Origin: Desulfatitalea tepidiphila | GTDB taxonomy: Bacteria > Desulfobacterota > Desulfobacteria > Desulfobacterales > Desulfosarcinaceae | Direction of reading: 5' to 3' | Length of the DNA: 64,000 bases | Assembly (NCBI RefSeq): GCF_001293685.1 | Contig: NZ_BCAG01000001.1 | Span: forward strand, 248,001 to 312,000 | The notes under the pieces: generated by a model | The model's input: the letters and a program-made list of their open reading frames with translations, nothing else | The model's database searches: none | Told to the model about the DNA's origin: nothing | In this document: one piece after another, positions 5,519 to 7,070 of the stretch | Position numbering within the stretch: the stretch's first letter is position 1 | Layout of the letters: each line of letters begins with the position of its first letter | Made by a program: the position numbers and the translations under genes

Positions 5519-6553
5519 ATGTACGAGTTGAACGATTATGGGTATGTGCTGCCTGAGGGGTTGATCGCCCAGCAGCCGGCCGAGCGGCGCGACCGGTCGC
5601 GGTTGTTGCGGCTCGACCGGATGTCGGGGCGTGTCACTCATGGCACGTTCGGGGATATCGCCGACCTGTTGGCGCCCGGCGATGTGCTGGTGCGCAACAA
5701 CACCCGGGTGATTCCGGGGCGCCTGCTGGGACGCAAGCCCACGGGCGGTCGGGTGGAGGTGCTGGTGCTGGATTTCGCCCAGGGGGTGACGCGGGGCGAG
5801 TTCACCTGCCTGGTCAAGGCCTCCAAGCGCCCCAGGCCAGGCAGTCGCCTGATTTTCGACCAGGGGCTCGAGGCGCGGGTCCTCGATGTTCAGGAGCGCA
5901 CCTGCACCCTGGCCTTCGAAGGGGTGCCCGATTTCGAGGCCGTGCTGGAACGCATCGGCCATGTGCCCTTGCCGCCCTATATCCGCCGGGCCGATACGAA
6001 CGGAGACCATGATACCTATCAGACCGTCTATGCCGCTGAAAAGGGCGCCATCGCGGCGCCCACGGCCGGCCTGCACTTCACCCCGTCCCTGCTGGAGCGG
6101 CTGGCCGACCGGGGCGTGGTGATTGCCGATTTGACCCTGCATGTGGGCTATGGAACCTTTTTGCCGGTCGAAGCGCGCGATATCCGCGACCATCGCATGC
6201 ATAGCGAGTGGTTCACCCTGCCCGGCGAGACGGCCGAGGCGGTGAACCAGGCCAGGGCCGCCGGCCGGCGGGTCGTGGCGGTGGGCACCACCTGCGTGCG
6301 CACGCTAGAATATTGCGCCGGCCCCGGCGGTCGCTTGGAGCCCCTCAGCGGCGCGTGCGACCTTTTTATATACCCCGGTTACGAATTCAGGGCGGTCGAC
6401 GCCATGATCACCAATTTTCATCTGCCTAAATCGACCCTGCTGATGCTGGTATCGGCCTTCGCCGGACGGGAGCGGATTCTCGCCGCCTATGCCGAGGCGG
6501 TCAGGCTGGGGTATCGGTTTTTTAGTTATGGGGATGCGATGATAATTCTATGA
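5519..6553 (+). CDS. queA: S-adenosylmethionine:tRNA ribosyltransferase-isomerase
   Basis: QueA transfers and isomerises the ribosyl group of SAM onto 7-aminomethyl-7-deazaguanine in tRNA, forming epoxyqueuosine. ATG 5519 gives MYELNDYGYVLPEGLIAQ, the normal QueA start, and 344 residues, the normal length. Family blocks are present: DRSRLLRLDR, VRNNTRVIPGRLLG, IAAPTAGLHFT, LHVGYGTF, TTCVRTLE and ITNFHLPKSTLLMLVSAFAG near the C-terminus. No clear Shine-Dalgarno is seen. Its pathway partner tgt follows, but an S23 gene between repeat arms separates the two. The C-terminus is intact, and repeat copy B begins at the stop. Confidence 0.96.
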   Translation: MYELNDYGYVLPEGLIAQQPAERRDRSRLLRLDRMSGRVTHGTFGDIADLLAPGDVLVRNNTRVIPGRLLGRKPTGGRVEVLVLDFAQGVTRGEFTCLVKASKRPRPGSRLIFDQGLEARVLDVQERTCTLAFEGVPDFEAVLERIGHVPLPPYIRRADTNGDHDTYQTVYAAEKGAIAAPTAGLHFTPSLLERLADRGVVIADLTLHVGYGTFLPVEARDIRDHRMHSEWFTLPGETAEAVNQARAAGRRVVAVGTTCVRTLEYCAGPGGRLEPLSGACDLFIYPGYEFRAVDAMITNFHLPKSTLLMLVSAFAGRERILAAYAEAVRLGYRFFSYGDAMIIL

Positions 6554-6610
6554 AAAAGTTTAAAGTTTGAAGTGTTAAGTTTTAAGTGAAGGAATTCTGT
6601 CGATTTTGAT
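6552..6610 (+). repeat. AGTTTAAAGTG-type repeat, copy B: left arm of the S23 element
   Basis: The arm reads GTTTAAAGTTTGAAGTGTTA and then AAGTGAAGGAATTCTGTCGA. It pairs with the inverted arm at 7001-7070. Both arms of this pair share GGAATTCT where the other copies have GGTATTCT, which suggests the two arms evolved as one unit. Confidence 0.85.
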
Positions 6611-6650
6611 TTGTTGATAAGTCGGTGAAAAGTCGCAAAGGCGTCAGGTT

Positions 6651-7028
6651 ATGGCATATAGCTCTTTTGAGGATTTGGAGGTGTGGCGGCGGGCGAGCCG
6701 ATTGGCTGTCGAGACCTACCGGGTGCTGGCCGATAGCAGAGACTACGGATTAAAAGATCAGATGACCAGATCCGCGGTTTCCATTGCCAGCAATATCGCC
6801 GAAGGAGCGGAGCGGGGGACCACGGCTGAATTCATCCGGTTCATCAGAATTGCCAAAGGCTCCGCCGCGGAATTGCGAACCCAATGTAACATCGCAAAAG
6901 AGATTGGCGCGATTTCTCAACCTTTAAAAATCAATGAACTGATCGCAGAATTGAAGGAGATCTCGAGCATGCTTCAGGGCCTCGTCGTTGCCCTGCAAAA
7001 TAAAATAGATAGAATTCCACCACTTTAA
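6651..7028 (+). CDS. Four-helix-bundle protein of the S23 (23S rRNA intervening sequence) family
   Basis: The 125-residue protein starts MAYSSFEDLEVWRRASRLAV and contains YGLKDQMTRSAVSIASNIAEG, GTTAEFIRFIRIAKGSAAEL and ELRTQCNIAKEIG. These are the hallmark blocks of the S23/IVP four-helix-bundle family. Members are encoded inside 23S rRNA intervening sequences in Leptospira and Coxiella, and the related bAvd protein serves diversity-generating retroelements. Here the ORF lies between inverted repeat arms (6552-6610 and 7001-7070) and its last codons overlap the right arm. It splits queA from tgt. The family is known to be basic and nucleic-acid-binding; its role here is unknown. Confidence 0.9.
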   Translation: MAYSSFEDLEVWRRASRLAVETYRVLADSRDYGLKDQMTRSAVSIASNIAEGAERGTTAEFIRFIRIAKGSAAELRTQCNIAKEIGAISQPLKINELIAELKEISSMLQGLVVALQNKIDRIPPL

Positions 7029-7070
7029 ACTTAACACTTAACACTTTAAACTTAATATCTTAAACTTTCC
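7001..7070 (-). repeat. AGTTTAAAGTG-type repeat, copy C: right (inverted) arm of the S23 element
   Basis: Read on the minus strand this is GTTTAAAGTGTTAAGTGTTA, then AAGTTTAAAGTGGTGGAATT, CTATCTATTTTATTTT. It aligns closely with copy B. It overlaps the S23 stop codon and runs to within two bases of the tgt start codon. Confidence 0.85.

Follow-up and report, generated by a model that had tools for sequence, protein, structure and literature searches.

Why does a gene for an S23 protein stand between queA and tgt, bordered by two arms that are inverted copies of each other? The arrangement lies in a stretch of 64,000 nucleotides from Desulfatitalea tepidiphila (contig NZ_BCAG01000001.1, positions 248,001 to 312,000), here called the window, whose own numbering we use. 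An element of about 0.5 kb, with S23 as its sole gene, fills the gap from the queA stop codon (TGA, 6551-6553) to the tgt start at 7072. The names queA and tgt are presumed, following an earlier note on this DNA. To our knowledge the S23 protein has no known function, despite a solved structure. We think it probable that the window holds a mobile stem-loop element, a free-standing form of the S23-bearing intervening sequences (IVSs) of 23S rRNA, and that its S23, as a pentamer, recognises the heptamer arrays at its ends. The earlier note had proposed such a free-standing element of IVS design inserted in the queA-tgt operon, and the proposal gained support from arms at orthologous loci, from arm copies that track S23 and from empty sites.

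The gene (6651-7028, plus strand, 125 aa) encodes an S23 or four-helix-bundle protein, matching PF05635 at 6.8e-33, TIGR02436 at 4.4e-33 and the five chains of PDB 2GSC at 1.1e-15; the protein is 96% identical in the nearest named relative, also a Desulfatitalea. The inverted arms (6556-6613 and 6996-7053) are 58 nt long, 84% complementary and separated by 382 nt, which together with the family matches confirms the earlier description of an S23 ORF between inverted arms at the queA-tgt junction. In full the 5’ arm covers 6554-6614 on the plus strand and the 3’ arm, an inverted heptamer array, 6996-7068 on the minus strand, its inner side overlapping the end of the S23 ORF. When the RNA of the element region was folded the arms paired, with a z-score of -4.1 and none of 100 shuffles equally stable. 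What the earlier note had missed is the key feature of the arms: they are degenerate tandem heptamers. Read from outside to inside, each has five AAGTNNN units and then GGAATTCT; in the 5’ arm the units start at 6556, 6563, 6570, 6577 and 6584 and are followed by GGAATTCTGTCGATT.

Within the window both S23 arms read GGAATTCT, while four of the five other arm copies read GGTATTCT, and the earlier note had made this contrast a mark shared by the two S23 arms. It did not hold beyond the window. Many S23-less copies elsewhere in the genome also read GGAATTCT (for example L004, L007, L008, L010, L018 and L019), and the private mark was a sampling effect of the window. The inverted-repeat relation of the two arms is real and independent of GGAATTCT.

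The same architecture recurs across bacteria. Of 60 genomes, the window genome and its relatives, 43 contain S23, with up to 13 matches each when fragments are counted. From many phyla we took 80 named loci, the best 80 of 203 relatives found, and dropped two with short flanks. Significant inverted arms flanked S23 at 64 of the 78 testable loci, against 2 of 144 control placements within the same loci, one of which was another heptamer pair. A further proteobacterial set, partly overlapping the named one, had arms at 34 of 40 loci. The order of G060 (a Lysobacterales record, which we take to be Xanthomonadales) contributed 27 of its 30, and six proteobacterial genomes that the named set also covers contributed 7 of 10. 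At L314 and L327 the significant arm alignment was non-heptameric. Among cyanobacterial plasmid loci, 12 of 13 had inverted arms.

Pooling gave 214 S23 matches, of which 194 were unique with the domain and sufficiently long flanks. Tandem arrays lay upstream of S23 at 161 of these loci and downstream at 162, and the best period was 7 in 137 and 141 of them respectively. Arrays had a median length of 4.6-4.7 units, with modes of 4 and 5. The same test on 373 control windows away from S23 gave 28 positives, 13 of them with period 7 and several resembling the arms of other elements. Of 121 loci with heptamers on both sides, 92 had a 5’ unit at most one mismatch away from the 3’ unit once that was reverse-complemented, compared with an expectation of 8.6% between different loci and with 7 of 121 in direct orientation. 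Read outside-in, the 5’ unit was richer in G than in C at 114 loci, balanced at 19 and poorer at 6.

The sequence of the unit varies, and we compared it with the S23 lineage. In the clade of the window S23 the units are AAGTTTT/AAGTGTT or AGTTTTC/AGTGTTC, in hosts from the Thermodesulfobacteriota, Bacteroidota, Verrucomicrobiota, Planctomycetota, Nitrospirota and Pseudomonadota. On a FastTree tree of S23 domains with 124 rows and 20 unit clusters, the unit changed 48 times, against 88 when shuffled (minimum 82). For the 55 named rows there were 16 changes; shuffling inside each phylum gave 25 (minimum 21). Among pairs from different phyla, a unit was shared by 15% at a protein identity of 40-50% and by 64% where identity exceeded 70%; an inter-phylum Mantel test was modest (rho 0.22, with 14 of 500 permutations as high). 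These comparisons argue that the heptamer unit belongs to the S23 lineage. The elements also appear to cross phyla at times, because on the same 55 rows host phylum changed 20 times for 13 phyla, against 37 when shuffled.

Arms also occur without S23. The window has four further places with such copies, all found by arm search: solo arms at 5201-5254 (plus strand, upstream of queA, 91% identical to the 5’ arm and common to G007), 32735-32786 (plus) and 35919-35968 (minus, missing from the genome-wide list), and a convergent pair at 37701-37817 (37701-37737 plus, 37759-37817 minus). The whole window genome (G000) gave at least 45 matches, copy counts here and below being lower bounds since only part of the candidates were scored. 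Among 49 listed copies there were 13 neighbour pairs less than 1 kb apart. Twelve of these pairs, the S23 element among them, are on opposite strands, and every one converges, with GGAATTCT on the inner side and the heptamers on the outer. Four copies on this list had been added for their nearness to known matches, which biases the pair count upward but not the convergent orientation. The arm-only copies thus have the geometry of element ends. No significant match to S23 remnants was seen in the 8 interiors tested of the 11 S23-less pairs. Of 24 S23-less arm sites, 10 lay between co-directional genes, 6 between divergent and 6 between convergent genes and 2 inside an ORF; with contexts so mixed, insertion targeted to operons by all copies is not supported.

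That arms should track S23 was a check suggested earlier, and the outcome was good for ten of the eleven same-genus genomes, for one proteobacterial order (250 genomes) and, less tightly, for a second arm type. Within the genus, the five genomes with AAGT-type S23 (G000, G002, G006, G007 and G009) each had at least 35-45 arm matches. G001 and G003, with S23 matches in which no AAGT type was recognised, had none, and neither had G005, G008 and G010, which lack S23; G004 was the exception. The GTGAACR arm taken from G022 matched at least 42 times there, 8 times in G028, 4 in G029, 2 in G017 and not at all in the 23 other genomes searched.

For XCC0516, the Xanthomonas S23 protein of PDB 2GSC, we predicted before any arms were examined that they would consist of the GGGAATC heptamers published for Xanthomonas (PMC4692102). 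The closest S23 among the searched genomes was 81% identical. Of the 21 loci closest to it (L298-L318), 20 had GGGAATC- or GGGATTC-type heptamers near S23; L317 had GTGAATC, and at L314 the heptamers were seen upstream only. The order-wide count covered 250 genomes, an array being three exact GGGAWTC units in a row and an S23 match being called at E 1e-15. Arrays occurred in 36 of 72 genomes with an S23 match and 9 of 178 without (Fisher 2e-15, no phylogeny correction). With S23 at least 68% identical to XCC0516 the counts were 22 of 22 against 23 of 228 (2e-19, likewise uncorrected), a cut-off that was chosen after both searches, whereas the first count is free of it.

If the element moves, related junctions should exist without it, and on cyanobacterial plasmids such empty sites, another check suggested earlier, were present. 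In Trichormus variabilis (L271) an exact 428-nt insertion stands out against plasmids L275 and L276, which are 97.6% identical around it; it has GTAAT at both ends and sits at the stop codon of the gene before it. Six records (H30-H35) gave gapped matches here, of which these two were aligned. Nostoc plasmids L286 and L287 carry S23 at one operon junction, flanked on each side by TTCTA or ATTCTAA. In another, L264, it stands at the next junction, between two copies of ATG, and L283, L284 and L285 have S23 at neither. Picosynechococcus PCC 7003 has cas10-S23-cmr3 where PCC 7002 has cas10-cmr3. S23-less counterparts also exist for L267, L270 and L274, with no clear direct repeat; at L274 the element falls within the final codons of the gene upstream.

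The queA-tgt junction was surveyed in the 20 of 22 family genomes with tgt, G024 and G029 being left without a clear picture. S23 with both arms was found in G002, G007, G009 and, in another genus, G026, with a stop inside S23 in G009 and G026; the suggested search for an orthologous queA-S23-tgt locus without arms thus found both arms at each full-length S23. A truncated S23 with the 3’ arm only was found in G025, heptamer-like or octamer-like arrays or remnants alone in G017, G022, G023 and G028, and a possible scar in G004. By eye, no arms were evident in G005, G008, G010, G011, G014 and G015. In G001 and G006 tgt is not beside queA. The junction may be a general landing site. Other palindromic repeats, without S23, occupy it in G008 and G010 (L103 and L104).

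Orientation bears on how S23 is expressed. Of 62 named loci with near neighbours, 55 had neighbours agreeing in direction, and S23 ran with them at all but one of these (54 sense, 1 antisense). For ordinary genes at these loci the figures were 54 sense and 2 antisense, out of 73 triplets in all; gene calling was crude (greedy long ORFs), and the triplet baseline of the window was unusable owing to antisense ORFs. At the 13 plasmid loci the two annotated neighbours ran the same way as S23 in 9 cases and the opposite way in 3, and one locus was mixed. S23 would then rely on read-through transcription, with expressed copies surviving as genes.

A mechanism can be drawn from these features. The element would have landed at the queA-tgt junction, and its S23 would be made from the operon mRNA by read-through. 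The arms of this transcript would form a long stem, a probable substrate of RNase III by analogy with IVSs, and cutting there would leave the flanking genes usable. The S23 pentamer would bind the tandem heptamers of its own arms and mobilise its own element in cis and arm-only copies in trans. Recognition of its own array would account for both the lineage-matched units and the arm copies that track S23. Nine residues of S23 (Q37, R40, S44, N48, E51, G52, R55, S71 and E74, in window numbering counted by hand) are each kept in about 88-100% of the 194 sequences; this conservation hints at a binding or active site that is specific. A solved S23 relative is a toroidal pentamer (PMC4990558, citing Lin et al. 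2006, in the passages covered here). As arrays have four to five units and the relative is a pentamer, our guess is that each subunit takes perhaps one heptamer.

Several observations weigh against a mobile element moved by its own S23. The steps from binding by S23 through catalysis and RNA processing to the chemistry of transposition are ones we infer. The sense bias of S23 is no stronger than that of ordinary genes (54:1 against 54:2); this is the orientation of an operon gene, where free insertion would give about half and half. About one sixth of S23 flanks at the 194 loci have no array. The co-occurrence counts are uncorrected for phylogeny, only the tests based on the S23 tree allowing for kinship. 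Two of the zero arm counts come from genomes (G003 and G008) that are only 86% and 64% complete, G004 has 7 weak arm matches and no S23, and G029 carries a GTGAACR-armed S23 yet has only those at least 4 arm matches. Arrays are present in the 9 of 178 order genomes that lack an S23 match, one of them with 85 matches. Direct repeats at the insertion were seen at three sites only, are 3-7 bp long and at L286 and L287 are partly arm-like; at L270 and L274 they are absent. Beside the window element CTATG occurs on both sides (6548-6552 and 7070-7074), a weak insertion mark because queA would have no stop there without the insert.

The nearest relative of the window genome, G007, adds to this list. 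Of 25 arm flanks compared 22 sites could be aligned, and G007 has an arm at 20 of them (the arm match is missing at L027/L251, and an N gap obscures L024/L248). Little can therefore have moved recently in the window genome, and a recent burst is not supported; between the two genomes no clean insertion boundary was seen.

Could the element spread through its RNA instead? We consider it unlikely that this is a non-autonomous retroelement, in which S23 binds the element RNA and hands it to a host reverse transcriptase for copying to DNA, the arrays growing by slippage of the enzyme. Avd of diversity-generating retroelements is a structural relative of S23, the sense orientation in operons and the presence of IVSs in rRNA suggest an RNA stage, and two arm sites differ between G000 and G007 by exactly 14 nt, that is two heptamers. 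However, PF00078 reverse transcriptases are absent from the arm-rich G002 and G009 (98-99% complete), weakening dependence on such an enzyme, and the sense bias can also be explained by the need for read-through expression, because the S23-less arms lie in mixed contexts. Set against a diversity-generating retroelement, the window genome has its sole PF00078 match on another contig; template and variable repeats were not searched.

The arms might also be mRNA stems of a resident regulatory or RNA-processing module, with S23 as an RNA-binding operon regulator that does not move. S23 does lie inside operons (queA-tgt, cas10-cmr3, cas6-cas4), oriented like an ordinary operon gene, the arm RNA is structured, and the passages of PMC2700814 and PMC4679880 covered here propose regulatory roles for heptamers. 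We still regard this as improbable: close relatives have the same gene junctions without the element, S23 copies decay by stops or truncation (G009, G026, G025, L277), and on cyanobacterial plasmids the neighbours vary from case to case. Hardest of all to credit is that the arrays are simple slippage repeats, with S23 genes merely nearby or stabilising them. Unit numbers do vary, and some genomes have arrays without a matching S23, but slippage alone explains neither why the two flanking arrays are inverted copies (those 92 of 121 loci), nor why, inside single phyla too, the unit follows the S23 lineage, nor why the whole unit of gene plus arms is missing at empty sites.

The mobile element has partial counterparts among known systems. 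Repetitive extragenic palindromic sequences (REPs) and bacterial interspersed mosaic elements (BIMEs) are dispersed inverted units that may hold one protein gene, the REP-associated tyrosine transposase (RAYT), between two of them; mobilisation in trans is presumed, and the RAYT is a Y1 HUH enzyme. The S23 element shares the dispersed inverted units around one protein gene, unlike these systems in its protein: a Pfam and NCBIfam profile search of the window S23 matched S23-family models only, with no Y1 (HUH) transposase and no recognised catalytic domain. Between the window arms, where S23 is the sole gene, there is no known transposase; genome-wide only PF00078 was searched. Compared with classical insertion sequences and miniature inverted-repeat transposable elements, inverted arms are present, and direct repeats are seen at the three cyanobacterial sites and not clearly at two. 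A phage collection searched with the window S23 gave no match at E 1e-5.

Like the short tandemly repeated repetitive (STRR) sequences of cyanobacteria, the arms are degenerate, tandem, dispersed heptanucleotides, and the arm units of cyanobacterial S23 elements are presumably STRRs, judging by their form. Cyanobacterial STRRs and the GGGAATC repeats of Xanthomonas look like S23 element arms. The published Xanthomonas repeats include 70 convergent pairs in Xcc and 75 in Xac, a geometry that matches that of the window genome, and GGGAATC-type heptamers are the S23 arms of that group; in the passages covered, the authors found no general link of these repeats to mobile elements and described heptamers as G-quadruplex formers in Xanthomonas and Nostoc (PMC4692102).

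The closest published likeness is the 23S rRNA IVS of Coxiella, of 428 nt with a 28-bp stem cut by RNase III and an S23p ORF preceded by two or three GACAGAT heptamers (PMC4990558). It too has an S23 gene in the loop of a terminal-inverted-repeat stem, sense to the host transcript, with tandem heptamers. Its authors, who also name Leptospira, describe its role and its origin as unclear and refer to an old proposal of a mobile element, as far as the passages covered here go. The window element differs in lying between protein genes of an operon, not at helix 9, 25 or 45, and in having arm-only copies scattered in the genome; it is outside any 23S rRNA gene, and window positions 4500-9000 gave no Rfam match at the gathering threshold. 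Heptanucleotides of Geobacter metallireducens, four or five in tandem and in one class mostly paired, were read as regulatory (PMC2700814), and the TAACTGA repeats of Beggiatoaceae, two to six in tandem, as translation signals or regulatory sites (PMC4679880); by these descriptions both form tandem arrays as in S23 arms. The passages covered of these two papers and of PMC4692102 make no mention of S23. Among the open-access matches listed, subscription journals being outside the scope, no paper linked S23 genes to heptamers generally, beyond the Coxiella remark.

These likenesses allow a wider proposal, which we advance tentatively and hold to be possible rather than expected. S23 proteins may be the recognition and mobility factors of a so far overlooked class of transposable elements found throughout bacteria, with ends set by repeat period and not by sequence. 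The pentamer would read about five heptamers, each lineage its own unit, and would move both its own element and arm-only copies; STRRs, Xanthomonas GGGAATC repeats, probably the Geobacter heptamers, and 23S rRNA IVSs would be its footprints. Heptamer repeats have so far been reported separately, without a common origin. With a link to S23, a large class of bacterial repeats has an origin that can be tested, S23 has a candidate function, and the intervening sequences of 23S rRNA have a source. If true, it would be a mobile element without a recognisable recombinase.

Some smaller observations concern single loci. The window genome has two S23 genes in total. The second (L002, G000:C1:240087-243395), 13 kb upstream of the window S23, has one internal TGA and arms of inverted CTCGTA hexamers, unlike the window arms, placing two element types within 15 kb. 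At L062 (G022:C1:4260000-4264800) three S23 elements of the same type lie head to tail at a spacing of about 1 kb. The convergent arms of L025 (1501-1555 and 2007-2055) enclose no S23 but an ORF that by eye is thioesterase-like, possibly a host gene caught between two arms. In G131 the 85 overlapping GGGAWTC matches, those listed forming one long run from G131:C1:130033-130158 and beyond, occur with no S23 at threshold, perhaps a heptamer array expanded on its own. S23 splits CRISPR operons on cyanobacterial plasmids, as cas10-S23-cmr3 once and cas6-S23-cas4 twice (L272, L265, L269).

The neighbours of the window element are both on the plus strand. The upstream gene, queA, is placed at 5519-6553 from the sequence and the ORF list, with an earlier start listed at 5441 and a stop codon that abuts the element; tgt occupies 7072-8187 in the ORF list. 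Upstream of queA, at 5300-5440 and adjoining the solo arm there, lies a palindrome of GTCATTCCGGCGAAAGCCGGAATCCAG type, in a stretch mostly missing from G007.

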